From positions 1-59,233 of IMG/VR virus record IMGVR_UViG_3300021197_001657: a DNA stretch of 59,233 nucleotides; one strand, written 5' to 3'. The position numbers were made by a program, and so were the translations under genes. Of the stretch, positions 2,729 through 56,476 are shown one piece after another. The stretch's first letter is position 1. Each line of letters starts with the position of its first letter. The stretch comes from a virus. The notes beneath the pieces were generated by a model, which did not search any database, was not told where the DNA came from, and worked only from the letters and a program-made list of their open reading frames with translations.

Positions 2729-3835
2729 TCATCCGAGGGCAATTGCCATAGCTGTAATCTCTGAAGAGATAATGCTGTTTCCACTCCAGGTGCTAAGTGC
2801 TTGGTTTTCCACATTGCTTAAACCAACTTGAGTTTTTGTTACTGAGTGGGGATTAGATGTACTGCTAGTGTGAGCAGTTAAGTCTGAGGCTGTCGCAACC
2901 CCTGCCTCTGCTGCCGTCTGGTTAATCCATGTTGAAGTGCCTGTATCATAGGCCAGAACCTCATTGTCTGCCGGGGTGCCTGTAATCGTGGTGTCATTAA
3001 GCTCTGCAATAGTGTCTTCGGTTGCCACCTGAGCATCCACATAAGTCTTGATAGCCTTTGCAGAAGCCAGGGTGTCATCTGACCCGGATACCGAAGAAAG
3101 GTCTGTATCCAGACTTCCCGATGCAATATGGCTAGTAGTCAGGTCAACCAGTGAAACTGCACCAGAAGAGACACTAAAGTCTGCCGATGCAAATGAGGCA
3201 ATACCCTTGTTTGAGGAAGTTGCGTCCTCTCCAGTAACAGTAATCGTTGTCCCAGTTGCAGAGGTGTCAATACCCTCACCTCCTGCTACTGTCAATGTCT
3301 CTGATCCTAAAGCAACATCTATAGTGCCTGAGTCGGTAGTCGCATCCAGGTCTGATGCGGTTATCTGAGCATCGACATAGGTTTTAATAGCCTTGGCGGA
3401 TGCCAACGTATCATCAGAACCCGACACACTGGATATATCAGTATCTAAAGTGCTAGATGCAATATGGCTTGTTGTAATATCAACCAAAGACACCGCACCA
3501 CTAGAAACTGAAAAATCTGCACTTGCAAATGAAGCCACCCCTTTCGCACTAGTTGAGGCATCTGTGGCGGCTATCGTTAAACTATCTGCACCACCATTTA
3601 CCGTTGCTGTTATGGGAGCGGTTGCTGATACTGTCAAAGTATCCGTTGATGTATCGGCCTCCATTGTATTTGATCCATCTGTTATAAAAACAAATGCGTT
3701 CTGGCTGGAGCCAATTTTACTAAATGGTGTTGATACGCTAATACTCGGAGTGGTTTGTGTTACCGTTACTTTGTTACTAGACGGAGTAACAGTAACTCCA
3801 TTATTAGACTCCGTAACAGTTACTAAATTACTCAT
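2729..3835 (-). CDS. Tail fibre with tandem ~85-residue duplication
   Basis: A 368-residue protein. Two copies of a shaft unit begin [16 protein letters not shown] and continue through [20 protein letters not shown], at about residues 104-160 and 215-275. '[11 protein letters not shown]' is a common knitting motif in marine-phage fibres. The N-terminus is a short Thr/Val repeat of 'VTVT' and 'VTVTQ' strands. The protein ends [10 protein letters not shown]. The ATG overlaps the end of the 116-residue gene by four bases. Receptor-interaction role is inferred from fibre architecture. Confidence 0.65.
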
Positions 3836-4182
3836 GCGGTTACCTCACGGTTAAGTATCACTCTTCCCTCTAAAATCCTTGAAACGGTGTCTGCACTTGT
3901 ATTCTTTAGCTCAAAGTCATATACAGCATTGTCGAAGTCGTATCCTGCGGTTGTCCCGTATGCTATTTTGATATTAATATTTGGGCTGGAACTCAACAGG
4001 GTTATACCACTACCATTTGCTAGGCTGGCAATCTCAGTACCACCCTTTGATTCCTTGATTTTCATTGCGGCAGTATAGCCGGAACCCAGTGCCAACAAAG
4101 ACCCTCCACTGTCTTTATAATCAATATCGAGATCAAGGTCAGCCCCCTGCTCTATCGTAATATCATACTTTCCTGCGGCCAC
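3832..4182 (-). CDS. Virion-associated protein, GTG start
   Basis: A 116-residue protein starting at GTG (4182-4180), which shares its first base with the stop codon of the Cys-rich gene. A strong AGGAGG ribosome-binding site lies just upstream, inside the end of that small gene. The N-terminal pattern [20 protein letters not shown] resembles the N-terminal domain of small virion proteins found ahead of fibres in many environmental phages (BppU-like layout). The C-terminus contains [19 protein letters not shown]. It may be a fibre-base or head-tail junction protein; role unproven. Confidence 0.55.
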
Positions 4183-4319
4183 TACTGTCCTCCTCTCATT
4201 TCACTAAGTATAGAGAAAGGTATTGTCTTACTGTTGCATTTACAAGGGTTATCCTTTGTACACTCACATGGGTCACAGGTGCAATTTTCACACTCGCACT
4301 CAGGGTTTGCACACTTCAT
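4182..4319 (-). CDS. Cys-rich mini-protein, metallothionein-like
   Basis: A 45-residue gene. Nine cysteines fall within residues 3-28 (C3, C8, C10, C13, C15, C18, C20, C26, C28) as CxC and CxxC pairs, interspersed with Glu and Asp. This is the pattern expected of a soft-metal cluster such as a metallothionein. The ATG (4319-4317) overlaps the adaptor stop codon as ATGA. The stop shares one base with the GTG of the next gene, whose AGGAGG site lies inside this gene's last codons, so the reading frame is doubly coupled. There is no signal peptide. The tail after C28 (about 17 residues) lacks Cys. Metal binding is inference; the reading frame itself is well supported. Confidence 0.7.
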   Translation of the reverse strand: MKCANPECECENCTCDPCECTKDNPCKCNSKTIPFSILSEMRGGQ

Positions 4320-5338
4320 AAGTACCTGTTAATAACCATTGAACCTCTGTTTCTACCCTCGGATATAGATGTACTAGACATACCCTCCATACTCTTAGCC
4401 TCATTCATTTGTTCTATAAACCTCATCCTGTACATCTGGGACTTCTCTATGCTCTTCACCTGGCCCTCTTTCAGCCACGCTCTTTCAAGCGCACCAAAGA
4501 CTATTCCCTCGTGCCAGTAAGCATTGATTGTCGGGGTTGATGTATCGGAAGACAAACCAGAACTAAGTGGGACACCCCTGACTTTAAGTGTTAGAAACAC
4601 CTTTGTTGTTGCATCCTTGTCCTCGTAAATGTCTATGTTCTGTTTAGGAAGTGGATATATCCTGAATGTATCAGATGTGCGGTTGTTGAAGATCACAGCC
4701 TCTATTGGACCATGCTGTTCTCTCCACTTCGGAGTGTTGTCCACACTATTCACCGCAGAAGAAAATGCGTTGGGATGAAACCCCATACTAGACTCAAGCA
4801 TGTAGTGCTTGGAACCCCTGCTCGATGCCGCAGCATTTAACTGTGACTCGGAGTATATCGCCAGTTCCCTGCCGTTTATACTAACCGAGGTAACCTCTGC
4901 TATCGTGCTGGGCTTCGTGTAGGTGGGACCTATTCTAAATACAGAGACGGAGCTATCGTTAACCGTATCACCAAAGTTAACCTTGTAGGTAACCGTAGTC
5001 GTGCTCGGTACAAGTATATTAAACGGGCCTAGATATTCACTAGGACCTCCGTCAGCAACAAGAATAGCATCACCCGAACTATAACCATGGGCACCACTAA
5101 AAGTTATCTTAGCGGTCTTACCATCAACTGTAAGCGTTCCAGTCTTGGTAGCCTCCCCAAGGGGGGTCGTACTACCCGGATTGGTGGCATCTCCTTCAAC
5201 CTGGGGATGTCTTGTGATTCTTGTGAATTCTGTAAGTGCATCATCGATGTACGTATTTATTTCACGATCACTCCAGTGACGGTTGTCTTGATCTTGCAGT
5301 GCTGACTCAACTCTTTCACGGATGTCTTTCCGATTCAT
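4316..5338 (-). CDS. Head-tail adaptor (tail tubular A / gp11-like)
   Basis: A 340-residue protein beginning with DIRERVESALQDQDNRHWSD and then EINTYIDDALTEF. This helical N-terminal pattern is typical of podoviral connector/adaptor proteins that dock under the portal. A beta-rich central insert (about residues 55-130) and a long helical C-terminal half (RAWLKEGQVKSIEKSQMYRM) follow. The position, after capsid genes and before fibres, fits T7 gp11 or P22 gp4-type adaptors. The start shares a base with the upstream stop (taATG) and the stop overlaps the Cys-rich gene. Family assignment is by pattern and context only. Confidence 0.55.
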   Translation of the reverse strand: MNRKDIRERVESALQDQDNRHWSDREINTYIDDALTEFTRITRHPQVEGDATNPGSTTPLGEATKTGTLTVDGKTAKITFSGAHGYSSGDAILVADGGPSEYLGPFNILVPSTTTVTYKVNFGDTVNDSSVSVFRIGPTYTKPSTIAEVTSVSINGRELAIYSESQLNAAASSRGSKHYMLESSMGFHPNAFSSAVNSVDNTPKWREQHGPIEAVIFNNRTSDTFRIYPLPKQNIDIYEDKDATTKVFLTLKVRGVPLSSGLSSDTSTPTINAYWHEGIVFGALERAWLKEGQVKSIEKSQMYRMRFIEQMNEAKSMEGMSSTSISEGRNRGSMVINRYL

Positions 5339-6533: not shown

Positions 6534-7616
6534 TTAAGCAAACTTAGTACATTGAGCTTCAATCCTGTACATCCAAAGGTCCTGTAATATGATACAGCTA
6601 TAAAAAGTATCCCAGGCCACTGTTCCACGCTGTCCCAACGGATCGCCAGGTCCAGGCTTAGGCATCACGACCTTAGATCGGAGGCTGTCCATTCCACCGA
6701 GAGTGGCACACCCACCGAAGTCCTGAGCCATAATTATAATTGGGTAAATGTCGGAGTTTGTTCCATCCGTTGAAACACAATGGTTAGCACTTACTCCCTC
6801 AGTATCGCCAGCACTCTTAAACGGAACCGCCTGAGTGGTGGTAATAAAACGAATACCCTCTAGTGTTCCGATCTCACCCTCGATTAAATCGCTGGTATCG
6901 GAATAATTTGCTGCATTAATCCAGCCTGTCATCGCACGAAGATCCTGACTAAGATCAGGGTGACAAACTGCAATATAAGCCTCACGAATAGGCTGAGTTG
7001 CAATTCCAACACTCGCCCGTAATTTATCACGCATTTTCTTAGCATCATTCTGCTCAAGAGAACGTATTGCTGTTTGGAATAACCTGTTAGTAGGACTAGC
7101 TCCTCCCGGAGTATTTTTAACACAATTAACTCCACCAATATTTTGATCTGTCGCAACCCTGGTTGTTCCATCAGAAGAAGACCTTACAACCGAACTTCCA
7201 GCGACAAATGTCTTAAAAGCGAGGTAATCAAGGGTCTCTCCAGCCTGTTGTGCCTGTCGCTCAGTAACGACCTGTAAAACAGGGTCATGAGAGGCTGCAA
7301 GCATTACGTCCGTAGTGTTTACATAACTGCCGTACTGCTTGAGCGTATGCATCAAAGTCGTGTGCTCAAGAGATGTGAAGTCAGGAGTGACACCCTCGGC
7401 TAATGGGCTATCAGCAATAGGAAACCGCTCATACCTTCTATGGCGAATTTCTAGTCCCTGCTTCTGTGGTTTGGTTTCCTTTTGCGCGAACTTGGCAAAA
7501 GTCTGCAATCGCTTCGCAATAGGAAGCATTCGTTTTTGAATAGTAAACGCATCATTTGCGCTCAAATCACCATAAGATTGTCCGGTTAATGCCCCGGTTC
7601 CACCGTATGCTGCCAT
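6534..7616 (-). CDS. Major capsid protein, N4 gp56-like
   Basis: A 360-residue protein. The segments LKQYGSYVNTTDVMLAASHD, VVTERQAQQAGETLDYLAFK and INAANYSDTSDLIEGEIGTL are characteristic of the N4-gp56 family of HK97-fold major capsid proteins. Length fits the family (roughly 350-400). It lies after the scaffold gene with a GGAG ribosome-binding site ahead of ATG, and is followed by a hairpin terminator. The N-terminal region (YGDLSANDAFTIQKRMLPIA) is the expected N-arm and helix. The protein forms the icosahedral shell. Confidence 0.85.
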   Translation of the reverse strand: MAAYGGTGALTGQSYGDLSANDAFTIQKRMLPIAKRLQTFAKFAQKETKPQKQGLEIRHRRYERFPIADSPLAEGVTPDFTSLEHTTLMHTLKQYGSYVNTTDVMLAASHDPVLQVVTERQAQQAGETLDYLAFKTFVAGSSVVRSSSDGTTRVATDQNIGGVNCVKNTPGGASPTNRLFQTAIRSLEQNDAKKMRDKLRASVGIATQPIREAYIAVCHPDLSQDLRAMTGWINAANYSDTSDLIEGEIGTLEGIRFITTTQAVPFKSAGDTEGVSANHCVSTDGTNSDIYPIIIMAQDFGGCATLGGMDSLRSKVVMPKPGPGDPLGQRGTVAWDTFYSCIILQDLWMYRIEAQCTKFA

Positions 7617-18454: not shown

Positions 18455-19171
18455 ATGGAATCAGTCGCCCTCTATATAAGAACCAGTTCCCTCGCTAACG
18501 TAGAGGGTGACTCTCATGCCAGACAAGAAATAGCCTGCCGTGAGTATGCCAAAAACCATAAACTCAAACCCGTCTTGATGGGCATCGATGATGGTGTTTC
18601 TGGTGGTGACCACATTCATACCAGGAAAGGATTGATGGACCTAATCGGTGCCTGTCAGGAACGTGGTATTATCAAAATTTTATGCGAGGACGTTAGTCGG
18701 TTTTCTCGTGACATGATGGTACAAGAGACCGCCTACCGTTCCCTCATAGACAAGGGAATTCAGGTGATACCAGTCAAAACCCCTGAGCTTTTTTCAATAG
18801 AAGCAGACCCATCCAGAACCTTGATAAGGCAAGTCATGGGTGCATTCTTTGAATTTGAAAAGAACTCATTGGTGGCGAAACTGCGTGGAGCCAGGGAACG
18901 CATCCGACAATCAGGCCGGAAGTGTGAGGGGCGAAAAAGTTTAGTCGAGCGTTACGGTACTGAGCTATCGGATAAGATCAGGGTACTAAACCGCAAAGGA
19001 TTAAGCCTTCGTCAAATCAGTAAACAGTTGTTCAAGGAAGGTGTTGAGACCGAATACGGCAATCCTCTTCAACCGACTCAGATCAACAATATTTTAAAAT
19101 CCAATGCAAGATCCGTTAAGGTTCAAAGATCTTCCAGAGGAGACACAAATTCATCTAAAGGAGATAGCTGA
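18455..19171 (+). CDS. Serine recombinase (resolvase/invertase type)
   Basis: A 238-residue protein. The N-terminal catalytic domain begins VALYIRTSS with Ser11 as the expected nucleophile. It shows the conserved EDVSRFSRD segment (about residues 70-80) and FFEFEKNSLVAKLRGARERI, the start of the long E helix. A C-terminal HTH follows (NRKGLSLRQISKQLFKEG). It lacks the large zinc-ribbon domain of phage integrases, so resolution, inversion or dimer removal is more likely than integration. No attachment site was identified. Its 3' end overlaps the next gene by 68 bases. Confidence 0.75.
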   Translation: MESVALYIRTSSLANVEGDSHARQEIACREYAKNHKLKPVLMGIDDGVSGGDHIHTRKGLMDLIGACQERGIIKILCEDVSRFSRDMMVQETAYRSLIDKGIQVIPVKTPELFSIEADPSRTLIRQVMGAFFEFEKNSLVAKLRGARERIRQSGRKCEGRKSLVERYGTELSDKIRVLNRKGLSLRQISKQLFKEGVETEYGNPLQPTQINNILKSNARSVKVQRSSRGDTNSSKGDS

Positions 19172-29355: not shown

Positions 29356-31254
29356 ATGAACGAAGAAACAGTGAAACTACCGACTACCTATCAAAGTTTT
29401 ATTCATCTGTCCCGGTACAGCAGATGGAAGTATGATGAGAACAGGAGAGAAACCTGGGAAGAAACGGTTGACAGGTACTTTAATTTTTTCGAGGAGAAGC
29501 TGGATCGTGAGATAGACCCCTTGCTGAGGAAAGCTGTGCTGTATCTGGATGTTATGCCGAGCATGAGGTGCCTCATGACTGCTGGTCCTGCACTAAAGAA
29601 GGAAAATGTTGCCGCATATAACTGTAGCTATGTTCACGTTGACAGGGCTACATCCTTTGACGAGATCCTCTACGTTCTCATGAATGGAACTGGTGTTGGC
29701 TTTAGTGTAGAGGAAAAACACACGAGTAGTCTCCCTGTTGTCCCCAATAAATTATATCCATCAGATAGTATAATAAAAGTCAAGGACTCAAAGCTGGGAT
29801 GGGCCAAGGCCTTCAGGGAACTGATTGCTCTACTTTACTCTGGGTTGTCTCCACAATGGGACCTGTCTCTAATCAGACCTGCCGGGTCCATATTAAAAAC
29901 CTTTGGTGGCAGGGCTAGTGGCCCAAAGCCTCTTGAACAATTGTTCAGGTTTACAACGGTGGTCTTTGAAAAGGCTAGGGGTCGAAAGCTAACCCCTCTT
30001 GAGTGCCATGATCTTGTCTGTAAAACCGCAGAGGTTGTGGTCGTGGGTGGAGTGAGGCGGTCAGCGTTGATAAGCCTGAGTGATCTTGGTGACGATCAAA
30101 TGCGTAGGGCCAAGTCTGGTCAGTGGTGGAACGAGCATGTGCATAGGGCACTCGCAAACAACAGTGCAAACTACCACGAGACTCCCGACACAGGGACATT
30201 CATGAAGGAGTGGTTGTCGCTCTATGAATCCAAGTCTGGAGAGCGTGGTATTTTCTCATCCAGGGTGGCAAAGGAACACGTTGACAGAAACCTGGAAGGT
30301 AGAAGGGTTTCTGTAGGAGACTACGGGACCAACCCGTGTAGTGAAATTATTCTTAAATCGCGTGAGTTCTGCAATCTTTCCGAGGTTGTCATCAGACCGA
30401 ATGATAACATTGAAAGTATTAACGAGAAGGTTAAGTTTGCTACGATGCTAGGCACCATGCAGTCCACCCTCACAGACTTCAGGTATATTTCTGATGAATG
30501 GAAACAGAACTGCGAGGATGAGAGACTACTGGGGGTGAGTCTGACTGGGATCTGCGATAATGAATTTACATCAACGCTCACTCCTGAGCTAGAGGATGCG
30601 ATGCTTAAATGGAAAGAAACCTCGGTCCAAACAAACAAGGAGTTTGCAGATCAACTCAACATTAAACCTAGTGCTGCAATTACTTGCATTAAACCCAGTG
30701 GGACCGTGAGTCAACTGGTTGACAGTGCATCGGGCATCCATCCGAGGCACAGCCACTACTATATTAGGACTGTACGCATGGATAACAACGACTCAATGTG
30801 TAAGTTCATGCAGGACATGGGGTTCCCTAATGAACCGGATGTAACTAAGCCGGATCACACTTCCGTGTTTTCATTTCCAATGACCTCTTCGCTTACTGCC
30901 AAGATGAGAGACGACCTGTCCGCCATAGAGATGATGGAGCTCTGTCTTTCCTATCAGAGGTTTTGGTGTGAACACAAGGCGAGCATTACGGTCACGGTGA
31001 AGGAAGAGGAGTGGATGGAAGTTGGATCATGGGTTTATGACAACTTCAACCTCATGTCTGGTATGTCCTTTCTTCCACATAGCGACCACGGATATGCCCA
31101 GGCACCGTATCAGGAGTGTGATGGTGAGGCACACGACAAACTATTAAAGAAAATGCCAAGCGTGGACTGGTCTGAGTTAGCCAATTACGAGGCAGAGGAC
31201 TACACTACTGCGAGTCAGGAGTTGGCCTGTGTCGGAAATTCATGTGAAATATAA
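29356..31254 (+). CDS. nrdJ: Class II (adenosylcobalamin-dependent) ribonucleotide reductase
   Basis: A 632-residue protein. NPCSEIILKSREFCNLSEVV holds the active site: Asn326, Cys328 (thiyl-radical Cys) and Glu330. TCIKPSGTVSQLVDSASGIH is the substrate/phosphate loop, and the C-terminal pair Cys625-x4-Cys630 (CVGNSC) is the redox shuttle seen in monomeric class II enzymes. The class II monomeric type needs host B12. It makes deoxynucleotides for replication. It is encoded seven bases after the primase-like gene and seven before the phosphate-transporter-like gene. Confidence 0.9.
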   Translation: MNEETVKLPTTYQSFIHLSRYSRWKYDENRRETWEETVDRYFNFFEEKLDREIDPLLRKAVLYLDVMPSMRCLMTAGPALKKENVAAYNCSYVHVDRATSFDEILYVLMNGTGVGFSVEEKHTSSLPVVPNKLYPSDSIIKVKDSKLGWAKAFRELIALLYSGLSPQWDLSLIRPAGSILKTFGGRASGPKPLEQLFRFTTVVFEKARGRKLTPLECHDLVCKTAEVVVVGGVRRSALISLSDLGDDQMRRAKSGQWWNEHVHRALANNSANYHETPDTGTFMKEWLSLYESKSGERGIFSSRVAKEHVDRNLEGRRVSVGDYGTNPCSEIILKSREFCNLSEVVIRPNDNIESINEKVKFATMLGTMQSTLTDFRYISDEWKQNCEDERLLGVSLTGICDNEFTSTLTPELEDAMLKWKETSVQTNKEFADQLNIKPSAAITCIKPSGTVSQLVDSASGIHPRHSHYYIRTVRMDNNDSMCKFMQDMGFPNEPDVTKPDHTSVFSFPMTSSLTAKMRDDLSAIEMMELCLSYQRFWCEHKASITVTVKEEEWMEVGSWVYDNFNLMSGMSFLPHSDHGYAQAPYQECDGEAHDKLLKKMPSVDWSELANYEAEDYTTASQELACVGNSCEI

Positions 31255-31961: not shown

Positions 31962-32543
31962 TTATGGCACCACTTTTTTAAACATTAAAGTGAAAAACCC
32001 CTTGCCGTAATCATCGTGCATAACAGAATCCCTTGGATTCATATCTGTTGGATATATTTCTGACCCCTGGTTTAACTTTGGCGGGTCTATTAATTCAGAT
32101 GATGCCCCTATTATGCCTCCACCTAGTTTTCCAACTTTAGATAATTTTTTAAGGAACCCTTCCTTGTCTGAAGCTATGTTCTTGTATACCCCATCTTCAA
32201 CAAAGCCACTAACATATTTAGGTGATAATCTTTGAGTATAACCACCCTTCGCCTTGCCACCACCTCGTATTTTTTCAGGATTATCCCAGTCCTCAACAAG
32301 TTCTTGTATCTTTTTACCTGATGGAACCTTAAATACAACTCCACTTTTCTGGGAGTACGGACTTAAAGGGGGAACTTTTTGACCAAACTTGTGTTTCAAA
32401 GAAGGGTCATGTGGTAATTTAGCGGTTGTAGGCCTTCCTTTAGCCACACCCAAACCTTTTTGTGCTATCTTTTTTCGGGCTTCAGTCTCAGTCATCCCGT
32501 AGAAGGGGGCCCTAGCAGTTCCGTGATAATAAAAGTCAGACAT
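31962..32543 (-). CDS. Possible ADP-ribosyltransferase-like protein, 193 aa
   Basis: The N-terminus FYYHGTARAPFYG carries a His-Gly-Thr motif after hydrophobic residues, as in the first strand of ADP-ribosyltransferase/2'-phosphotransferase folds; KSGVVFKVPSGK could be a second core strand. A third conserved acidic residue could not be assigned. It is the last late gene, sharing a base with the 3975-residue gene; polyvalent-protein loci often carry ART domains nearby. The remaining sequence is basic with Gly-rich segments. The function is tentative. Confidence 0.35.
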   Translation of the reverse strand: MSDFYYHGTARAPFYGMTETEARKKIAQKGLGVAKGRPTTAKLPHDPSLKHKFGQKVPPLSPYSQKSGVVFKVPSGKKIQELVEDWDNPEKIRGGGKAKGGYTQRLSPKYVSGFVEDGVYKNIASDKEGFLKKLSKVGKLGGGIIGASSELIDPPKLNQGSEIYPTDMNPRDSVMHDDYGKGFFTLMFKKVVP

Positions 32544-35500
32544 TATTCAGACTTTTTCTTCAACTTATTCGTTGGAAACTTAGACCTTTTAATGTAGTCC
32601 ATGAGTTTATTTTTACGAGACTCGATCAGTTCCTTAAAATATTTGTTCTTCTCTTTTATTTCTTCTGCTGGTTTTCCCATGCGAGTCATGTCTCTGAGTG
32701 TCCTCTTAGCATAACCCATGGTCTTTAATATCTCTGACTGCATATACCTAGCATTCCTTCCACGTTGAGATTCTGGTTCCACTGGTGAGATATTGAAGCC
32801 AATTGTCTGAAGAACCCCCTGTGTAATACTCTTCATTGGCTCACCATATCTATTGGTTTCGCCACGCATAGTTTGTTTCAACCTATTGAGAGCCCCAAAA
32901 TCACTATGAAGAAAAGGAGGCATCATCAAATTAGAGATGTACTTTATCCAGGAAACCGCTCTTTGAGTTGGTGAGTCCAAAGGATTTGCTACTGGTCGTC
33001 GAGTAAACCCGTCAGTACCTGTAGATACTGCTGCAATAATTGATGCCGTTGGCCCTCCAAGTAGGCCTAGAGTCTGGATAATAGCCAATGGATCATCCGA
33101 CATTGACTCCGATGCAATCTCAGTAAACATCCCCCATGGGTAGAGGTATGCGAGATCGAGGAATTGGGGCCTCCCAAACTCATCAAGGTAGGGTAGTGGC
33201 ATAATGTTCCCAGCATACTTCTTTTCCCTCATGTACTCTTGAAGAGACTCAATCAATGCATCGTATTCTTCTTCCTCAAGGTCGTGAGTATCCTTAAACA
33301 TCTCAGCCATAGCGTATGGCAATGCGATGTATGGGGCAAACCTCCAGGGTTTGGTTAATGCAGTTTCAACAAGCAAGGGAAAAACCTTGCTGGTGTAGGT
33401 GATAAAGGGTGCTCCCACAACTGCGGTTCTAAGAGTCTTAACTGATGGTTTAACCAATGAATAATCAAACAGCCACTTCTCAGCCTCATCTGCGGCAGTA
33501 GCAGGGTCCATGCCCTTGTCTATGTTGTTCATGTAGAGCATGGTCTTACCCAGAGCATCAACCATACCGTACTTATCACTGGTCCACTCTTGTGCCGTGT
33601 TAAGAAATTCTTTTGCAATCCAGAATGCTTTGAACGGAGACCCTTTTCTTTGTGTTCTGTTTAGAAAATTCTCATACTCTTTCTCGATCCTTCCAAGTTC
33701 GACAGCCGCAAATGTTGATCCAGTCAATCCAAAGTCCTTTACCTCGTCATACATTGTCTTCTGTTTGGTGTAGTCCCTGCCTAATGCTTTGGCTTCAGCC
33801 TCTTTCTTTGCTTCTTTCCATGTCTTAATCATCTCCATGCTTGCCTTGTTCAGGTAGTATGGAATTTTAGCCATGTTCATTCCACCTATATTCATGAACA
33901 CGAGATTTGAAGAAAAGTTACGGACCCATGCTGCTGGAAAGTTTGCGGTTACCTTGGACCACTTAAAGAGTCTGTTAGCCTTACCCAGTGCCCCAGTGTC
34001 ACCGATGATTGCTTCAGCCACGTTATCAGGCTTTGTCATTCTCATCGAGCCCACCAGATCATCGTAAATCTCACGTTGCACTATCATCCCACGGAGTTTC
34101 CCGTAACGAGCGTTGTCGGGTATCTTCCTGTAGTCATTAGGCATTACTATCCTATCTAAAGCATCATCGGCAACACGGTTCATTTCTGTCGATAGGTCAG
34201 CCACAACCTTTGCTTCATCTTTATTGGTCTCTTTGAGAACTGGGTATATCGTCTTGAAGATACGATCAGCCTCTGCCTTTAATCCAAATGCAGACATCTT
34301 CCTCGGCTTGATTAACTTCAGCCTGTCTTTCATCGACATTCTCTCTCTGATTAGATCAGAAAGTTCCTTTGACTGTATCCGATCCTTGGCACGAAGTACC
34401 TCTCTCTCCTTTTTAATATCCTGATTTAGTTCTTGAATATAGTTTTCAATGTCTTCTCGTTCTTCCGACAAGCCAGTGAGGTCTTTCTTTAATTCAGATG
34501 CAATGTTACTGTTGGCTCCAGTTAATTTATTAATTTCAGCAATGAAATCAAAATCAACAATAGATTCTGGAAGAACCCAGTTGAAATTATTCTCAGCACT
34601 GGTGTTAACTATTTCCTCAAACATATCCAACAGGGCCATGTCTCTCCCTGGTTGGAGTATAGCTTTACTAGCAAGGAATGCAGGGTCCTCAACTTTACCT
34701 TTTAAGAACTTCTGCAATCCTTTGTCTATGTCAGACCTTCTCTTCAAGTAGTCCATGTTTGATACCTTGTTCGACTGACCACGCTGGATAGCGTATCTGT
34801 CGTTATCGTCAAGTAAATACTGAAGATATAAAGTAGGTAGATACCCGCCATCGTGTTTTTTAAGGGCCGACTCAGGGAGTAATCCTTTCTTAACCAGATC
34901 CTCTCCAGACTGCCTGATGACTGCCTTTACTTCTTTTGCAGCCATTCTTTCTTTCATATCTGGGATAGTAGATAGGTCACCTCCTTTCGTTAGGTAATCA
35001 TAGATTTCTTTTGGGTTCTTTGATTTATACAATGCCTTGTATAGACGACTACCGACTTCTTCTATGCGAAGAATAGTTCCACGGGTCCTTCTCCGTATAT
35101 TACGAAGCAACTCTGGTTTTTCAATCTTGCCAAAGGGCTCCATGAATCGGGTAACAAACCCACTGAGCTTACGACCACCGGGCAATTCTTTGTCTTGATC
35201 AAGTGGTCTGGTGAATATTGACTGGCTGGTTGCCCAATCAGCCTGTCGTAGTTGTGCGTTGTTGAAGTCAGCCTGAAGTCTTGGGTCGGTGGTCAGTGTG
35301 TTGACCGCCATACTGAATGAGACTGGTGTAGCTGGGGCATCCATGTTCTTTTCCAGCTTCTTGATCTCAGCACCAGGGATCTTGAATGGGAGCTTGGCTT
35401 TGCCGAACATGTATTTAGCTCCAGCAGATATGTCAAGAGATCCTGGTTTGTATTGGAACTTCTTGATTATTCTCTTCTCGTAGTCTTTGAATAGCTGTCT

Positions 35501-38500
35501 AAATTGTTTGTTATCAAATGGGACACCACCCTGCTGACCAATCCAAGATCCTATGACTTCCCCCTTGAATACAAACTCGTATGCTTCGTGTGGTGGGATG
35601 CCTAAATCCTTTGCCCTTTGACTCATCTTTTGGTTGCCCATCGGGTCCAGTTTAATAATTCCAACTGGAGTCCCTACGGCAACCTCTTTAAATGCTGTGG
35701 TGTCTTCCCAGAGAGTGTTGTTAGGGAATGCGACAATAGGTGTCGTGGGTTTTTTGATACCAAAAGCACCACCCAATGCTACGACTATGGGTTTCCTATC
35801 GCCAAAAGTAAGCGTTGGTCCTACCATTTTTAATAATTCCCATGAGTCCTTGCCAGGATTTTGAGACTGTGCTTCTTTTAGAGCCTTGACAACTGGGAGT
35901 AAATTTTTGTTGGTAGGGTTAAGCATTATAGAGTCGATCCTATTTATCAGAGCCTGTTTCTTTTTAGGATCTTTACTAACCATGTCTTGCGTTTCTCTCC
36001 AGAAGATAGAGAAGTACGCTTTATTACTGAAGTGCATGTCTGGTGCCCCAACAACCGTTATAACATGGTCAGCACCCATGGCCTGTAAATCTCTTACATT
36101 CTTAACAATACTTATGTCGTCAGCCGCCCAAGCTGCACGGGCTTTCCTGTTGTCCTCTAGTAACGGGTAGCCCATACCACCACGCATCCAGTACCCTTTC
36201 TTTCCCTGGTAGGTGTCAGGCCAGATGTTACTTGTCTGGTCTTTGGCTACATAAAATCCTGTGGCAAACCTGTCAGACTGGCTTCGCTGAACGAGCTTAC
36301 CTTTCATCGACGCGAGGCTGACGGACTCTGATATATCCTCAAGTAATTCTACATCACCCTCTGATATTTCAGCGACTGCATCTGGTTGGTTGTGTCCAGG
36401 TTCCCAGTCAACCATGGTCGCTTCAATCGGGTCGTTCCTGAAGTAGGCCAAGACCTGTTGGTTGGCATCCCTCCACATGGCCTCGTAAGCGGCTGGTCGG
36501 AATCTTTCTGTTGACTCACCCATGACTGCATCGGCTCGTGTCAGTGCCTTGCCTACATCCCAGAGCCAGTGGTGCATGACATGGTAAAAGTAGTCTGGAG
36601 GCACATCTTCAAAGATGGAGGGGTCACGAGCATCAACGTCTCTTTTTATATTATCAAAAGCATCTTGTATGACCTTCCTGTAGTGACCAAAAAATGTTTT
36701 ATCGTCAGCCTTTCCTTTCTTACCTAAACCATCAATGCCTGAAATATCCTTACCTTGTAAATTAAGAGACCACCACTTTAAATCAACTCTCCATGTGTTT
36801 GCCACTGGCTTCCCTGTCAGTGGAGATGTGGCCAAGTCAGTGGCAGGACTTCCGGCTATGTGTGTATTGAGCTCAATTGCATCTATCGTTGGAGCATCAC
36901 CCAGACCTAGAAAGTGTTTGAAGAATGCTTGCTTGGCTTCTGCAATTCCATATAATTTCTGAGCATAATCTCCTAGCTCAGCCGCCATTTCTAACCTTAA
37001 TTTTACTGTTTCTTTATCATCACCTTGTAGGCTTTTTGGGTCTGCATCACCTACATACTTCTTAACAATTTCGTTGAACCCCTTTGTGTATTCAGCCAAA
37101 TCACGCAACCCAACCTTAACTAGGTTTCCATCTTTATCTCTTTGAGAGGGCTTGAGTAGTTGGTTTAGTCTGTCGTCACCAAAGGCCATCCTTACATTGG
37201 CTAGTTTTCTCCACTCCTTTAAATCAAACTCCCCCTTCTCTATATTATCAAGGAGCATTTGTCCTTCGTCTGTTGAAAAGTAGTATGCAACAGCATCCTC
37301 CATTCGTGGTTTACCACCAGTGGTTGCGTACTCCTGTGGTACCCATAGAGCCCCTGTTTTTTCATTAGGCTCAATCTGATTTTGTGGGTCTCTGTACCAA
37401 AGTGGCATCTCTGCAAGTTGTTTTTTCTTCCCAGATTTGTCTGCCTCACCTTGAGATTCTTTTATCTTCTTTCTTAAAGAGGCTATCTCTGTTTCTCTCT
37501 TTTTTATGTAGCCTTCTATTTTTGGAATTGTTTTTTCTTTTATCTTTTTCTTTGCAACCTCAATACGAGGTGCTGTGTACTCAGCCTTTAGCTCACCTTT
37601 TTGTGTGTATTCAGGCTTCTTCCCTGCAAACTTATCCTTTAGTTTCTTTTCATTTAGCTTAATATCATTTTGATATTTCTTTATCTGTGTTTTGAGTTCA
37701 GGAATCTTAACTTTCAGAATATTATTTTCATATCTATTATGTGAAAGCTGACTATTGTAGTGACCCATTCCATGATAGTTCTTACCATCTACCTGTAACA
37801 TCCAGTCACTTCCTACCTTAACAAACTGTGGCTTTCCTCCACTGTACTGGAATCTTCCCTCGATTGGTTCCCCTTTAGAATCATAAGCTGGTGTTGTAGA
37901 TGCCTCTTCCCAAGAAACTGTTTTAGGATAAATAACACCATCAGATATAGCTTCGTATTGAGTGTCAAATTTTTCAACGTACTCATTGACCCCTCTTTTT
38001 TTCCTTAACCCTTTACTAGGACCTTGCCCATTCCATGGAACATTAACGACCCAAAGTGGAGCTTTACTATACCATTGAGCAACTTTATTTTCATTAATCT
38101 CACCATTTAATTCCTTCTGACCAATGTTTGCTTCCAGATATTTTGATGTTCCCTTAACCCAGTCTGCACCATTCATGTATTCAACATAGGTTGTCAGGTT
38201 TGCTAACTTTGTCCCCTTCTTCGCTGGTTTTGCTTTCTTAACTCCACCAGTAAAATTCCAGACAGTCCAAGGGTTGTTTGCATCAGCACCTTGACTAGCT
38301 AGTGTCATAACTACCGATTTTGCAATGTCTCTCGGTGTCATTTCTCCCCTCATCAGCTTCTCCCTCTGCATTTTCATGAAGCTGATTATGTGCCCAAGGT
38401 ATGGGACCGCATCTCTACCCCTCCCTCCTGGGTTTAAACCAAACATGTCTCGGATCATCTGCCAGTTTGTCCAGATTTTACCTAAATAAAGAAGTCTTGC

Positions 38501-41500
38501 TGCTCTTTTGGTTAGTGCGCCATAATCTTTTTGAGCCTGTCTGCTTATTCTTTCTTTATAGGCTTCCTTGGTTTCCCCCTTTTTCTGTCTAAGTGAAACC
38601 TTGCCCTTTAGTCCTAGTCCAGTAATCTTTGCACTTTTCCCCCTACCTCCTGCCCCTGCATCATCCCCTTCATTTTCTTCTGTATCAATATCTTCTACGG
38701 TATCACCTGATTTTTCGTAACCACCTTTCTCAGTGCGAATTTTTTCCCACTCTTCAGGGTTTTTCATGTACTTTTTCGTCAACTCCACACCAGACAACTC
38801 ATGCCCTGGCAGACGTTGAGACCAAGACAAGTCCTCGAAAGGTACCGCTCTATCTAGTTCGTCTTGGAAAGGTAGTGGTTTGGTGGGGTCCTGAACTGGG
38901 ATTGGGCTGAGTATTATATTCATGTGCAACTTTTCAATTGCATTCCTTCTCTCAGGGGTGCCCTTCTCAAGATTGTTAATCTGTGCAACCCTAGCCCTTG
39001 TAACAATGTCCACTCTCTCAGCAAAATCACCAAGAGGATCAGACATTGAGTAGGAAATCATATCCTCAATCCTCCACGGTGAGCCTAGTACAGCCTCTCC
39101 TGGGACGTTGGCAGGAGTCGTTCCCGTCCCACTCTCGTCAATGTTTACAACCCCCCGTTCTGTTCCTCCTTGAAGGTAGGGCTTAGATGGCGATAGTCTT
39201 TTAACGAGCTCCTGCTTTCTCTTGTTTAAAAGAGAAGGCAGTCCACTCCTCCCATTTCCCCTGAACGCATCCAGATATCTATTCTCTACATCCCTGGCTT
39301 CAACCTCTCCAGCGAGTCTGAAGTAGTCAGACTGTCCCATGAGACGTTTCATTTGGTCTGGTGCAAAACCACTGGGAATTTGGTTGCCCATCATTGAACC
39401 AAGAGCGTTCATAGTGTAGGGCTTGAGCATATTTTCAAAAAGTTTATGAACCTTCCCTGCATCTTTTCCTGAGATATTTTTTTCTCTGGACAAAGACTGT
39501 ATCGTTTTCATCATCGCCTTTGACGGTAGCGATACGAGTTCTGAAAACTTCCTGTTTGATGCTTCGCTAGGATCATTAATAAGGTCGGTAACCGAGATAG
39601 TTGTTGTCTTGCTCCATTTCTGGTATGTCTTCGTTGGGTCCTCATCTAGGAACAGACTTCCGTCACTCCATTTCTTTCCAACGAAAGGACTTTTCAGTCC
39701 AAACTTACTGACAGCATCCTTCGCTTTCTTCTGATCATTATTGACAAGATCATTTAATGTGCTGGCAAATCTTTTCTGTATTCTTAATCTCTTACCAGGG
39801 CTAATGGATACCCATAGTCCTTTTGTGCTGTTCCTTATAGCGTTCTTAATCCGATCTTTAGTTATATTTTCTTCTGTAAGTGTACCACCTGAAGAAAATC
39901 CCTCTATTCCCTGTATAATATGTTGAACCTCATGCAGTATGGTGGCAATCAACCTGTGTGGAACTCCATCATGATTGGGATCATTCATCATTTTCATGTG
40001 AATATCTTCTATCCAACCCTGTGTTGTCATGGTCATCCGGTCCATGTCCAATCCCCTCATGGTCTCAGGATCGGGAGGTGCCGTTCCTATGGTCAGGCTA
40101 AGCCCCTTTCCAGTTGGATTGTCATCTGATGGATTCTGTAATGCACTACTGTACCCCATCCTTTCACCCATAAATTCATCGGCAAAGTGAACATACACAT
40201 CCTCAAGCTGTGGATAGTAATCAGCCAGTGCTCCAAGGTCCAGTAGGTCACCCAGTCTCATGTATGGTAAGGACTCTTCTGTCTTTTGTTTCTTAATTTT
40301 ACCCTTCTTGTCCTCCCCAGTAAAGACTTGCTTCCTCGTTGGCAAACTAGGGTCTATAACAGTGTTGTATGTGTCCCTCCACCCCTCATATTTAAAGGGC
40401 ATGGTCTTTAATTTTATCCCTGTGTTGGGGACCTCCACCCTCCACTTGCCGTCTGCCAGTCCGGGGTTGAACCACGCACCCTCCTTTGATCCCTTCTTCT
40501 GTCTGTTTAAATCCCTAGTGAGCATCTTCCCTTTGGGGTTCATCCCATTTCTGGTAATGAACTGTCTCACTCCAACCTCACCAACGAATGAGTAGGATAT
40601 CTCATCCTTGCTTGGTGGGACAACGATAAGTCTGTCGTATAATGGTGCCACCGTTCCCGTGTCTAGTTGAATCGTTCCAACCTGATCTCCAACGAGAATG
40701 TCACCGTAAGTTCTTGGTCTCAGAGATGGCTGATTCTTATCCTTGCCCGTGTTAAATAGCTGAACATCTGTATCAAAGACAATTTGTACAGCGTAAAGGT
40801 GGTCAGAGAAATTACCTGCTTTTGTTGCAGACTGATCGTTCTCCTTGTTGTATTCTACAATCGCACCATTTTCCATGGTAGCGATGTTCTCAGTATTTGT
40901 TTTGACGTTGGGGTTGGTATCCAGGAATTTGAATTTCTTTGTAAGAAGATTGGTCATGATTGCAGACCCAGTGGATATTCTCTTTCCGTTGACCTTCCTC
41001 TGTCCCTTTTTAGGTTTGTTGTCTGCCAGATTTTTAATTTTAGAAACGGCTCCAGATACACCAAAGCTGGCTCGACTTCCAGGAAAATCAGTATCAATCT
41101 CTCCAAATGGGACAATGGTATTTGTCATGTCTGGATCGGAATCCTTGACAGGGAATCCCCTGCTTACATCAATAAACTTCCCACCTTTTCGGTAGACTGG
41201 AGTATCTTCTGGGTCCAGCCTGTTTGCCCACTTCTGTTCTGCGTAGCCACCAGGAAATGCTTTCGGTGGCATGGGAAATATGGGCTTTAGTTTTTGATCC
41301 GGGAAGTATGTGGTGGACTCACTAATATCCTGCTCCCTCATCCCCCTCTGTACCTCTGCCGTGGTCCTCGCCCACTTGGGAACATCGTCAACCAGTTCTT
41401 TCCACTTTGCTCCGTTAGCCTCGTACCCCTTTGGTGGTTGTGTAAGGGCCCACTTGTCCCTGTCCCTCCATGCAGCCCCTTTCTTTTTCTTTAGGTAAGC

Positions 41501-44470
41501 CTCTCTCCCACTTGCTAGTATAGCATTAGCAAGTTTTTGTTCTGGTTCTCTAAGCCCAGACTTTAAGGACTTGCGAAACCCTTCTTGAAACTCTTTTGGA
41601 AATTTATCGAAGTTCATTAAGTCTTCAACCAAACGCTCAGGCCAAGCCTTACCCTTCATTGAGGCCAAAAGACTGGCATCTACATACCGTTCCGCATCTT
41701 TAGCAGTTTTCTTAGGAGCCCTTGCTGTGTCAAACTTTGGTCTATCGTACTGTTTGAGTGGGGGCTTTCCTCCGAGTGAGACGAACCTGTCAAAGTCACT
41801 CGGTCTTCTACCACGGGATTCTGATACTTCTTCCTGCTCTCCCTTTGGGGCTGTCTCTTCTTCTTCAGGTTGTACCTGTGAGACCTTTGGTTTGGATAGT
41901 TTCTTTCCTGAAATGATACTGCGGTTATTGGGGATATACTCATCCTGTAGTTCGTTTAATACGTTGATTAAATCCCGATCAGTAACATTGTTAAATCCTG
42001 GTATCCCTTTAAATCTTTTCCTTATTGATGCTATGAGCTTGTCGATAGCCCACTCTTTTTGTATGCCGTACTCCGCATAGTTTCTTGCGATGTACTCTTC
42101 TGTTTGCTTGAAGCTAGGTTCACCATCGGCTAGTTGTTCCCAGCTATATTTTTCGTTTACATAGGGATTACCAAGTGGCCCTTCCAGCCATGCTAGGATA
42201 TCCTTTTTGGCAGTTTTCTTGTACCCATTTATCATATCAATGTAGTCAGGAGAAAATGCCTGACCAGACTTACCGCCCTTCTTGACTCTCAGGCCAAGGT
42301 GTCCAAAGGCCTCATGAAATACAACCTGAACCATTCGTTTGATTGCATCGCTCTGTGTCTCTCCATAAATTGCCTCTGGAGCAATAACAATTTCGTCAAC
42401 TCCACGGACATATCCCTCACCAAACAGAAGTGTTTTAAGCCTCTCTACCTCTCTAACTTTTTCTTCAAGGGGGTCTGTAGACTTTTCAAATTTAGGTCCG
42501 TATTGTCCATCAAGCATTGCATCATATCTTTCCTGCCTAGACATGGCGGTCATCTTGACTCCAAGGCCAGAAAAGAATTTAGATACAGTTTTTAGTGCTG
42601 CCTTACCAACATTGTTGCTCAATGATTTTAAAACCCTGCCATCCTCCGTTGTATATTGGTTTTGATCTCTTATGTCCTGATACTTCTCAAGCTGTATATC
42701 TAACTTGTCTTCTTCTGAAAGCTCTTGAGTATCTTGATCTATGTCATCAACGACAGAATCAATAACAGGATTTGTATTCTCGCTATAGCTGACTCCATCA
42801 ACCAAATCCTCCGCAGTCCTAAGAAAGTTCTTGCGGTCTCCTCTTCTTCTGATCTCCTGTTTATTTCTTTCTACATTTACATTGTCTTCCGCAGTTCTGA
42901 GGGGTTCTTTTTCTAGGCGATCAACTTCCTCCTGAAGATCAGTCGTGCCCCTGTCAGCCAAGGCATCTACATCTTTATCGACAGTCTCCGGGATAGGACT
43001 CAAATCAGTTGTAATTTTAATCCTGACCTTTGGTAACCCTGTGACAACATCCTCTTCAAATATAATGTCGTTTTCTGTGTACTGACCTGAAGCAATAAGT
43101 TCCTCGGCCTCCTTTAAAGCAGAGTCCGTTGCCTCCTTGTAGTCCTTTTCTTTCTTTACAAGGTTGTCGTAGTCCTGCTGATCCTGCTTTCTTCTAGCCT
43201 CTTCCCTCTGTAATTTTATTTTTTCTAACGTAACTGCAAGATTGGCCCTCTTTTGAGTCAGATCAATCTGATCCTTCTCCTCCTGTATTGCCGCTTTCTC
43301 CCCCTCTTTAATCGCAGCTTCGCTTACTTTTTCTTGTAGTTCATCGTTGATTGTAGCCGGAGTATCTACCCTGTGATCCCTCTTCAACTTGTAGGCAACG
43401 GCAGTCTCTGCGACAGCAGGAGCACCTCCCATCACGACCTCGTTTACAAACGCACCCCATGCGGTCTCGAAGTTTGTCGGACCCATTTCACGGATCTTTT
43501 GTCTAAATGCCTCTGCCTGTGGTTCATCTAGCCCAGCATCAATTAAATTTTGCTTTACCTCGTAGGCATACACCTGTTCATCCATGACCTCAGCAGCAGT
43601 ACCACCGAGAACATCCATGCCGTATCTAGCGGCTACCTGCTTGACTGCACCCCATCCCTTGATCCAAGGTAGAAAGAGGTTGCTCGGAATTTCAAGAACA
43701 CCTGATGTGTAGGACCTCGTGAGACCAACGTCTCCAGCAATCTCAGATGCCATGTCTCGCATCTTAACCTGATCCTCTTGAGACAACTCTGTATAATCAA
43801 CACCCTGTTGTACTCCAATGGCTTCACGAATAACATCGTCTTCTAGTACCCTATTATAGGTTCCACCAGTGACGACTGCCGTGCTACCAACCGATGCACC
43901 TAGAGTACCACCAACCACTACACCAGTTGGTCCCTGTGTTACCCCACCTAGTACCGCACCAGCAATACCTGTTACTGTTGGAAAGAAAGACTCCAGTACC
44001 CCCTCTCCCATTTGACCAACGGTGGGTGTTGACTCTGGTAGCATTTCATACAGGCCACCAATGAAACCACCCTCACGAACATAATCCTCGTAGGTAGCCG
44101 CAGGTTTCTCAGTTGTCTTAACTTGTTGAAGGTCTTGTGCTATGTCGGTCATGGTCTCTTTGCCATAACCTTCTGGTAGGGCGGTTGCCGCCAGTCCTGC
44201 GCCTGTCTCTTTAAGGCCGACAAAGGACTTGTATAAAGTCTCGCCAGCACTAGCGTATGGGGTTTCGTCTGGGTCTGGTGGGGGTTCTGGTTGGGCCTCT
44301 ATTTCTAAACGATCTTCAGCTTGAATCTGTTCAAGAAATTCCTCTTTGAGAAAATTTCTACCATTTCTGCTTACAAATTGTTCATCACTATACCTATCAA
44401 TTGCATCTCTGGTAGACTCTCCAGGTTTTCTTTTTCTTTTGAGCCATTCATCAAATGAAATATCGACCAT
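32543..44470 (-). CDS. Giant polyvalent internal virion / ejection protein (3975 aa)
   Basis: An uninterrupted frame of 3975 codons. Features seen: a Gly-rich hydrophobic glycine-zipper-like segment at about residues 159-202 (GAVLGGVTQGPTGVVVGGTL); a charged coiled-coil-prone region at about 380-500; a zincin-like HEAFGHLG near 717; a second metallopeptidase-like LHEVQHIIQGIEGF near 1513, a pattern known from large polyvalent proteins; Lys/Glu coiled coil near 2230-2310; and a C-terminal region with helical hydrophobic stretches (FITYTSKVFPLLVETALTKP, near 3700). Large polyvalent proteins are thought to enter the host with DNA and counter defences. It follows the lysozyme-bearing virion gene, sharing one base. 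Confidence 0.65.
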   Translation of the reverse strand: MVDISFDEWLKRKRKPGESTRDAIDRYSDEQFVSRNGRNFLKEEFLEQIQAEDRLEIEAQPEPPPDPDETPYASAGETLYKSFVGLKETGAGLAATALPEGYGKETMTDIAQDLQQVKTTEKPAATYEDYVREGGFIGGLYEMLPESTPTVGQMGEGVLESFFPTVTGIAGAVLGGVTQGPTGVVVGGTLGASVGSTAVVTGGTYNRVLEDDVIREAIGVQQGVDYTELSQEDQVKMRDMASEIAGDVGLTRSYTSGVLEIPSNLFLPWIKGWGAVKQVAARYGMDVLGGTAAEVMDEQVYAYEVKQNLIDAGLDEPQAEAFRQKIREMGPTNFETAWGAFVNEVVMGGAPAVAETAVAYKLKRDHRVDTPATINDELQEKVSEAAIKEGEKAAIQEEKDQIDLTQKRANLAVTLEKIKLQREEARRKQDQQDYDNLVKKEKDYKEATDSALKEAEELIASGQYTENDIIFEEDVVTGLPKVRIKITTDLSPIPETVDKDVDALADRGTTDLQEEVDRLEKEPLRTAEDNVNVERNKQEIRRRGDRKNFLRTAEDLVDGVSYSENTNPVIDSVVDDIDQDTQELSEEDKLDIQLEKYQDIRDQNQYTTEDGRVLKSLSNNVGKAALKTVSKFFSGLGVKMTAMSRQERYDAMLDGQYGPKFEKSTDPLEEKVREVERLKTLLFGEGYVRGVDEIVIAPEAIYGETQSDAIKRMVQVVFHEAFGHLGLRVKKGGKSGQAFSPDYIDMINGYKKTAKKDILAWLEGPLGNPYVNEKYSWEQLADGEPSFKQTEEYIARNYAEYGIQKEWAIDKLIASIRKRFKGIPGFNNVTDRDLINVLNELQDEYIPNNRSIISGKKLSKPKVSQVQPEEEETAPKGEQEEVSESRGRRPSDFDRFVSLGGKPPLKQYDRPKFDTARAPKKTAKDAERYVDASLLASMKGKAWPERLVEDLMNFDKFPKEFQEGFRKSLKSGLREPEQKLANAILASGREAYLKKKKGAAWRDRDKWALTQPPKGYEANGAKWKELVDDVPKWARTTAEVQRGMREQDISESTTYFPDQKLKPIFPMPPKAFPGGYAEQKWANRLDPEDTPVYRKGGKFIDVSRGFPVKDSDPDMTNTIVPFGEIDTDFPGSRASFGVSGAVSKIKNLADNKPKKGQRKVNGKRISTGSAIMTNLLTKKFKFLDTNPNVKTNTENIATMENGAIVEYNKENDQSATKAGNFSDHLYAVQIVFDTDVQLFNTGKDKNQPSLRPRTYGDILVGDQVGTIQLDTGTVAPLYDRLIVVPPSKDEISYSFVGEVGVRQFITRNGMNPKGKMLTRDLNRQKKGSKEGAWFNPGLADGKWRVEVPNTGIKLKTMPFKYEGWRDTYNTVIDPSLPTRKQVFTGEDKKGKIKKQKTEESLPYMRLGDLLDLGALADYYPQLEDVYVHFADEFMGERMGYSSALQNPSDDNPTGKGLSLTIGTAPPDPETMRGLDMDRMTMTTQGWIEDIHMKMMNDPNHDGVPHRLIATILHEVQHIIQGIEGFSSGGTLTEENITKDRIKNAIRNSTKGLWVSISPGKRLRIQKRFASTLNDLVNNDQKKAKDAVSKFGLKSPFVGKKWSDGSLFLDEDPTKTYQKWSKTTTISVTDLINDPSEASNRKFSELVSLPSKAMMKTIQSLSREKNISGKDAGKVHKLFENMLKPYTMNALGSMMGNQIPSGFAPDQMKRLMGQSDYFRLAGEVEARDVENRYLDAFRGNGRSGLPSLLNKRKQELVKRLSPSKPYLQGGTERGVVNIDESGTGTTPANVPGEAVLGSPWRIEDMISYSMSDPLGDFAERVDIVTRARVAQINNLEKGTPERRNAIEKLHMNIILSPIPVQDPTKPLPFQDELDRAVPFEDLSWSQRLPGHELSGVELTKKYMKNPEEWEKIRTEKGGYEKSGDTVEDIDTEENEGDDAGAGGRGKSAKITGLGLKGKVSLRQKKGETKEAYKERISRQAQKDYGALTKRAARLLYLGKIWTNWQMIRDMFGLNPGGRGRDAVPYLGHIISFMKMQREKLMRGEMTPRDIAKSVVMTLASQGADANNPWTVWNFTGGVKKAKPAKKGTKLANLTTYVEYMNGADWVKGTSKYLEANIGQKELNGEINENKVAQWYSKAPLWVVNVPWNGQGPSKGLRKKRGVNEYVEKFDTQYEAISDGVIYPKTVSWEEASTTPAYDSKGEPIEGRFQYSGGKPQFVKVGSDWMLQVDGKNYHGMGHYNSQLSHNRYENNILKVKIPELKTQIKKYQNDIKLNEKKLKDKFAGKKPEYTQKGELKAEYTAPRIEVAKKKIKEKTIPKIEGYIKKRETEIASLRKKIKESQGEADKSGKKKQLAEMPLWYRDPQNQIEPNEKTGALWVPQEYATTGGKPRMEDAVAYYFSTDEGQMLLDNIEKGEFDLKEWRKLANVRMAFGDDRLNQLLKPSQRDKDGNLVKVGLRDLAEYTKGFNEIVKKYVGDADPKSLQGDDKETVKLRLEMAAELGDYAQKLYGIAEAKQAFFKHFLGLGDAPTIDAIELNTHIAGSPATDLATSPLTGKPVANTWRVDLKWWSLNLQGKDISGIDGLGKKGKADDKTFFGHYRKVIQDAFDNIKRDVDARDPSIFEDVPPDYFYHVMHHWLWDVGKALTRADAVMGESTERFRPAAYEAMWRDANQQVLAYFRNDPIEATMVDWEPGHNQPDAVAEISEGDVELLEDISESVSLASMKGKLVQRSQSDRFATGFYVAKDQTSNIWPDTYQGKKGYWMRGGMGYPLLEDNRKARAAWAADDISIVKNVRDLQAMGADHVITVVGAPDMHFSNKAYFSIFWRETQDMVSKDPKKKQALINRIDSIMLNPTNKNLLPVVKALKEAQSQNPGKDSWELLKMVGPTLTFGDRKPIVVALGGAFGIKKPTTPIVAFPNNTLWEDTTAFKEVAVGTPVGIIKLDPMGNQKMSQRAKDLGIPPHEAYEFVFKGEVIGSWIGQQGGVPFDNKQFRQLFKDYEKRIIKKFQYKPGSLDISAGAKYMFGKAKLPFKIPGAEIKKLEKNMDAPATPVSFSMAVNTLTTDPRLQADFNNAQLRQADWATSQSIFTRPLDQDKELPGGRKLSGFVTRFMEPFGKIEKPELLRNIRRRTRGTILRIEEVGSRLYKALYKSKNPKEIYDYLTKGGDLSTIPDMKERMAAKEVKAVIRQSGEDLVKKGLLPESALKKHDGGYLPTLYLQYLLDDNDRYAIQRGQSNKVSNMDYLKRRSDIDKGLQKFLKGKVEDPAFLASKAILQPGRDMALLDMFEEIVNTSAENNFNWVLPESIVDFDFIAEINKLTGANSNIASELKKDLTGLSEEREDIENYIQELNQDIKKEREVLRAKDRIQSKELSDLIRERMSMKDRLKLIKPRKMSAFGLKAEADRIFKTIYPVLKETNKDEAKVVADLSTEMNRVADDALDRIVMPNDYRKIPDNARYGKLRGMIVQREIYDDLVGSMRMTKPDNVAEAIIGDTGALGKANRLFKWSKVTANFPAAWVRNFSSNLVFMNIGGMNMAKIPYYLNKASMEMIKTWKEAKKEAEAKALGRDYTKQKTMYDEVKDFGLTGSTFAAVELGRIEKEYENFLNRTQRKGSPFKAFWIAKEFLNTAQEWTSDKYGMVDALGKTMLYMNNIDKGMDPATAADEAEKWLFDYSLVKPSVKTLRTAVVGAPFITYTSKVFPLLVETALTKPWRFAPYIALPYAMAEMFKDTHDLEEEEYDALIESLQEYMREKKYAGNIMPLPYLDEFGRPQFLDLAYLYPWGMFTEIASESMSDDPLAIIQTLGLLGGPTASIIAAVSTGTDGFTRRPVANPLDSPTQRAVSWIKYISNLMMPPFLHSDFGALNRLKQTMRGETNRYGEPMKSITQGVLQTIGFNISPVEPESQRGRNARYMQSEILKTMGYAKRTLRDMTRMGKPAEEIKEKNKYFKELIESRKNKLMDYIKRSKFPTNKLKKKSE

Positions 44471-56026: not shown

Positions 56027-56476
56027 TTAATTACAATTCCATTTTCTTAGAGACTTGTTAATCCTTGAATTAGGATCGTTAGCAGTTTCACTGGATGTAA
56101 GTTTCTTCTTCATCCCACTCATCCTGGCACAAAAACTCTTTTTCCTGCCCTTGGATTCTTTGGTCTTGGGATTAGGTGCAGGGGGTTTTAACTCGCCTTT
56201 GGTGTAACTAGCCCTACCTTTGGTATTTAACCCGCCTGACGGATCTTTCCCCTCCTTGCGTGTCCACGCAGGAGTCATCACTGGTGTAGTCAGGCCCCTC
56301 TTTTCCAGCATACCAACGGTAGCAACACTAACGGGGCCCTTCTTCTTACTTTGACTTCGGACTATAGCCTTGTCAGTCGGAGCCCCCTTAGATCCGGGGG
56401 TCCTCATCTTCTCTCCACTACCAGCTTTTATTCTCTTCCGCTTAGCATGGATGTTAGCCCAAAGTCCGTCACTCAT
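56027..56476 (-). CDS. Conserved SFCARMSGM-motif protein, 149 aa
   Basis: Contains PVMTPAWTRKEGKDPSGGLN then KGRASYTKGELKPP and KKSFCARMSGMKKKL, and ends LRKWNC-N. This is a recurrent protein family in environmental phages and viruses (basic, 'WTRKEGK.P.GGLN.KGR.SY' plus 'SFCARM'). No established function is known to me. It shares the stop/start base with the 149-residue beta protein upstream. Confidence 0.6.
   Translation of the reverse strand: MSDGLWANIHAKRKRIKAGSGEKMRTPGSKGAPTDKAIVRSQSKKKGPVSVATVGMLEKRGLTTPVMTPAWTRKEGKDPSGGLNTKGRASYTKGELKPPAPNPKTKESKGRKKSFCARMSGMKKKLTSSETANDPNSRINKSLRKWNCN

Follow-up and report, generated by a model that had tools for sequence, protein, structure and literature searches.

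A nine-cysteine, metallothionein-like mini-gene in an uncultivated phage and its relatives

Background

Why should a virus keep a gene of 45 codons, nine of them for cysteine, among the genes for its head and tail? The question arises from the 59,233-base record of an uncultivated virus, the whole of which is called the window here. A first-pass annotation of the window had described a metallothionein-like mini-gene coupled to both of its neighbours and had emphasized a role in the virion. The description is borne out by a Cys pattern conserved in relatives; the emphasis on the virion we believe to be too narrow. If peptides of this kind bind metal, then phages carry a direct tool for controlling zinc, copper or iron in the cells they infect. 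Searches of an open-access library turned up no published metallothionein encoded by a phage. Since no family model covers the nine-Cys family, its genes have probably been missed or left as tiny hypothetical open reading frames.

The mini-gene and its junctions

The gene occupies positions 4182 to 4319 on the minus strand, which the annotation had left unstated, starting at 4319 and ending at 4182. Its assignment rests on the open reading frame, on invariant Cys in relatives and on Cys codons that change only synonymously. The full translation is MKCANPECECENCTCDPCECTKDNPCKCNSKTIPFSILSEMRGGQ. The annotation had placed nine Cys in residues 3-28 of a 45-codon frame at these positions, and we find the same, with the Cys at positions 3, 8, 10, 13, 15, 18, 20, 26 and 28. 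Within the 26 residues of this core (CANPECECENCTCDPCECTKDNPCKC) they form four CxC and two CxxC motifs. The spacers between them are acidic or hold Asn, Pro and Thr, and Phe, Tyr, Trp and His are all absent from the core.

Both junctions are as tight as had been claimed. Upstream lies an SU10-like head-tail adaptor gene (4316 to 5338, minus strand; PF24175 SU10_adaptor, E=7.5e-10; phrog_399, E=1.6e-17), and its stop TGA sits within an ATGA that also holds the start ATG of the mini-gene (4316 to 4319, minus strand; junction TTATGAAG). At the other end (4182 to 4196, minus strand; AGGAGGACAGTAGTGG) the codons for the C-terminal RGGQ contain, in frame, the AGGAGG ribosome site of the next gene, and the G of the TAG stop is common to that gene's GTG start, which gives TAGTG (junction AGAGGAGGACAGTAGTGGCC). 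The downstream gene (3832 to 4182, minus strand) matches phrog_1084, a group of unknown function, and, less strongly, a family for the assembly of L-shaped tail fibres. The major capsid protein gene (6534 to 7616, minus strand; phrog_1357, E=2.7e-52) belongs to the same late gene block as the mini-gene, and the structural module comprises terminase, portal, a gene in the scaffold position, major capsid protein and adaptor. Phages with an N4-gp56-type capsid protein have a similar structural module; one of them, Pseudoalteromonas phage vB_Pun_Y3, has no gene in the slot behind the adaptor.

Conservation and selection

The Cys pattern is far from what chance would produce. Cys makes up 0.25% of the residues in the window's large minus-strand open reading frames, and at that rate the probability of at least nine Cys in 45 residues is about 3e-15 (6e-10 at 1% Cys). 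Relatives were sought without reference to the pattern: the adaptor protein served to gather 63 viral contigs, and the slot behind the adaptor was then read. All nine Cys are invariant in the eight sequences obtained via the adaptor gene. The nearest relatives thus all have the gene with its cysteines, and the description withstands the refuting condition that the annotation had set for it, relatives without the Cys pattern.

The codons tell the same story. Among the codons that differ between the window and L053, 20 are silent and 9 alter the residue, and the Cys codons account for four synonymous changes with no Cys lost. For L006 and L009, with dN of 0.06 and dS of 1.44, there are five synonymous changes at Cys codons and again no loss; the remaining pairs compared show a similar pattern at the Cys codons. 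Cys codons that turn over synonymously without loss argue that the protein itself is under selection, and on these codon comparisons we conclude that its Cys residues are under purifying selection.

The gene is not a fixture of the module in which it was found. On the adaptor tree it is present in all members of a clade of 12 rows that includes the window, and it is mostly absent elsewhere; over 48 rows its presence and absence require about four gains or losses. One relative (L030) has a decayed mini-gene with five Cys, L001 and L004 have one or two genes between the Cys gene and the adaptor, and four long contigs of more distant adaptor relatives lack the gene over their full length. This patchy presence marks the gene as an accessory cassette that is not essential to the adaptor module. 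Among the adaptor relatives that have no Cys gene (L013-L056), the slot directly after the adaptor is filled by varied Lys-rich mini-genes. Many of these end in GLLxxQGY or LExRGL, tails that may encode the next gene's ribosome site in the way RGGQ does.

A wider family

When viral contigs were scanned with a profile as guide, 127 and then 188 relatives emerged, and about 190 uncultivated viral contigs encode a family member. Judging by the phage relatives, most of these contigs are probably marine. A few variants aside, the cores follow the consensus C-x-N-x2-C-x-C-x2-C-x-C-x-P-C-x-C-[TS]-x5-C-x-C, to which the window peptide conforms at every position; the tally demanded most of the Cys and is informative only for the spacers and for Asn3, which was not demanded and yet is invariant. 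The core in the window and that of an unrelated locus, L070, share 88% identity as protein and 74% as DNA, which argues for strong and long-lasting selection together with horizontal spread. The distribution is best explained by a mobile cassette shared by several unrelated phage groups.

No family model in Pfam, NCBIfam or PHROGs matches the family, the PHROG models giving only noise at E>=1 for the mini-protein, and no chain in the PDB matches it by sequence. The tests on cultured phages were weak ones and found no member. A tblastn search with the peptide gave no match, a negative that is not strong since a query of this composition is probably hidden by low-complexity filtering. No copy was found when seven complete records of cultured phages were searched with a profile, and DNA searches around two copies gave no cultured-phage match. 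The AlphaFold model of the mini-protein is not confident (mean pLDDT 65, pTM 0.32). Such a model would neither support nor refute a fold organised by metal, and low confidence would be expected if metals organise the protein.

A scan of 84,980 bacterial and archaeal genomes found one relative, a 23-residue peptide (MCNNTNCTCDTCECTEENPCGCE) in a Gemmatimonadales MAG, and among 298 genomes of that phylum this known copy alone was convincing. The scan pattern fits 15 of 65 distinct family cores, about a quarter, so bacterial copies could be under-counted. The single bacterial copy lies just upstream of feoA-feoB on the same strand (L138:1824-2345), an adjacency that hints at a link to iron in bacteria. 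We considered and rejected a host-derived gene on the count of one relative in 84,980 genomes, a count limited by that pattern coverage.

Gene settings

The 68 distinct peptides of the family occur in at least four gene settings. The podovirus adaptor is the neighbour for 11 of them, counting L062, whose adaptor is cut by the contig end. For thirty, IscU, an A-type carrier (IscA) or both are no more than about 2.4 kb away, with a glutaredoxin adjacent in two of the thirty. Twelve are flanked by Hsp20 on one side and an M15 peptidase on the other, and other family members are beside tail or virion genes. Pfam confirms the identity of the example neighbours IscU, IscA, glutaredoxin and Hsp20. 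The order Hsp20, nine-Cys mini-gene, M15 peptidase is seen in L122, L278, L288, L294 and similar loci, which belong to another phage group.

The annotation's emphasis on the virion finds no support in these settings. Members of the family sit away from the head-tail operon in T4-like and other phages, where IscU, IscA, glutaredoxin or Hsp20 is often next to them, and distant adaptor relatives do without the gene. We therefore reject a role confined to the virion as a general explanation.

Loci differ in how IscU, IscA and the Cys gene are ordered and spaced, a variation that speaks against one arrangement frozen in place. In viral loci anchored on IscU the Cys gene lies within 3 kb in 30 of 80, a count biased upward by the choice of a Cys-bearing locus as the source of the query. 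A permutation test on long contigs was added for this reason. In ten long contigs with IscU or IscA, which are related and whose genome island is plastic, the Cys gene is nearer to these genes than random placement would put it (combined p about 1e-4).

A probable metal-thiolate protein

We believe the mini-gene probably encodes a small soluble metallothionein-like metal-thiolate protein, carried as a mobile cassette and serving as an intracellular buffer of metal and thiols, and we would put the probability of this reading at roughly 0.6. A high Cys content in CxC and CxxC motifs and a Cys region free of aromatic residues mark the metallothionein class, and the mini-protein has both. A three-metal M3S9 cluster needs nine thiols. 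The nine Cys would enclose soft metal ions in a small cluster, offering as many thiol ligands as the M3S9 cluster of the metallothionein beta domain. In the window phage, stop-start coupling would have the mini-protein translated along with the structural genes, so it is presumably made late. Most likely it serves during infection as an intracellular reservoir or buffer, both for Zn, Cu or Fe and for thiols. Proteins that depend on metal or Cys may be protected by such buffering, among them the iron-sulfur proteins of phages that carry IscU, IscA or glutaredoxin.

The likeness to known metallothioneins is one of kind. With beta-domain-like metallothioneins, which have nine Cys and an M3S9 cluster, the mini-protein shares small size, a CxC/CxxC array and an aromatic-free Cys core. 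No homology between it and the metallothionein models of Pfam was detected, and unlike those metallothioneins it is virus-borne and translationally coupled in a phage structural block. The bacterial metallothioneins SmtA, BmtA and PmtA (Pfam Metallothio_Pro) are likewise small and Cys-rich with CxC and CxxC motifs, but their length and Cys spacing are unlike those of the mini-protein. None of 28 family members matches the Metallothio_Pro model up to E=10, a moderate negative given that HMMER filters may suppress such composition. SmtA, BmtA and PmtA use His ligands and are marked by a zinc-finger-like fold; the core in the window has no His, and the model predicted for the mini-protein gives no confident fold.

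Alternative explanations

The tight junctions could suggest that the frame is maintained solely to provide the downstream gene with its ribosome site and its stop-start overlap. The AGGAGG and TAGTG do lie inside or across the frame, and the unrelated Lys-rich mini-genes that fill the slot in other relatives also overlap at start and stop. The RGGQ ending recurs in L053, L028 and L004, where the downstream gene differs, and we attribute its recurrence to the ribosome site within its codons. A spacer, however, would have no cause to retain nine Cys whose codons turn over without altering the residue, and phages that do not have this gene order keep the Cys too. In L012 the tail extends and the next gene starts separately, so that coupling is lost, and all nine Cys remain; the peptide is kept for itself and we find the spacer idea hardly credible. 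The annotation had argued that the frame is kept because the AGGAGG lies inside it. The ribosome site is indeed in frame, but L012 shows this to be a partial account. Small, mobile and Cys-rich also describes a disulfide-rich peptide aimed at the host, an inhibitor or anti-defence factor that is not a metal ligand. The sequence shows no apparent signal peptide, nine is an odd number of Cys, CxC geometry is unfavourable for disulfide knots, and the match to a conotoxin model is noise (E>0.3), all of which makes such a peptide very improbable. Another alternative is a virion or assembly factor, either packaged or else metallating or protecting a protein of the neck or the adaptor while head and tail are assembled. 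The mini-gene overlaps both the adaptor and a tail-associated gene, the whole adaptor clade of 12 keeps it, and some members in other phages are also near tail or virion genes. Against this, the outlying adaptor relatives mostly manage without it, including the four long contigs with no copy, so this adaptor does not require the gene; other genes intervene in L001 and L004, and the family also stands beside iron-sulfur, heat-shock and lysis-type genes. We regard a virion factor as unlikely.

A further rival is a more specific partnership, in which the peptide serves the phage IscU, A-type carrier and glutaredoxin by delivering, storing or shielding iron or clusters, or works with the host machinery where the phage genes are missing. 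According to passages of PMC5332604, iron-sulfur assembly genes are established auxiliary genes of marine T4-like phages; the phages that carry IscU, A-type carriers and glutaredoxin there are similar to those of our family members, and the genes often share an island with them. Those passages make no mention of a Cys-rich mini-protein, and the phage iron-sulfur proteins are different from it. The several arrangements found among the 30 linked peptides, the IscU-anchored loci (with their upward bias), the proximity on long contigs and the bacterial copy upstream of feoAB all favour the partnership. However, no IscU, IscA or glutaredoxin was recognised among the window's open reading frames. 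A nuclease gene is equally close to the Cys gene (p 2e-4, long contigs), so the signal may reflect common residence in a plastic island, and in the 134-kb contig G328 the iron-sulfur genes are about 24 kb off and Hsp20 is the near neighbour. CxC-rich patterns suit Zn or Cu clusters better than iron-sulfur clusters. The link of the family to iron-sulfur metabolism is thus suggestive, and a partnership specific to that machinery strikes us as doubtful. The broader proposal, that this is an unnamed and widespread viral micro-metallothionein family serving iron-sulfur or iron handling, a mobile cassette among unrelated tailed phages linked to phage IscU, IscA and glutaredoxin, is one we consider rather less likely than not. 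If it is true, the family would add a missing metal-handling component to the picture of marine phages as managers of host iron. Through the association with iron-sulfur assembly genes, experiments could address the open question of why IscU and A-type carriers are encoded by marine phages.

Other genes in the window

The rest of the window has features of its own. A protein encoded at 56027-56476 has a PAWTRKEG...GGLN.KGRASY block, which in L048 and L053 is encoded within or just past the slot behind the adaptor; its gene seems to move around within these genomes. One frame of 3975 codons runs from 32543 to 44470 on the structural-gene strand. A serine recombinase with a resolvase domain (PF00239, E=1e-21) is encoded at 18455-19171. 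A ribonucleotide reductase of the B12-dependent type (29356-31254) adjoins a short protein with a Na+/Pi-cotransporter domain (PF02690; 31261-31701), possibly an auxiliary gene for phosphate uptake.
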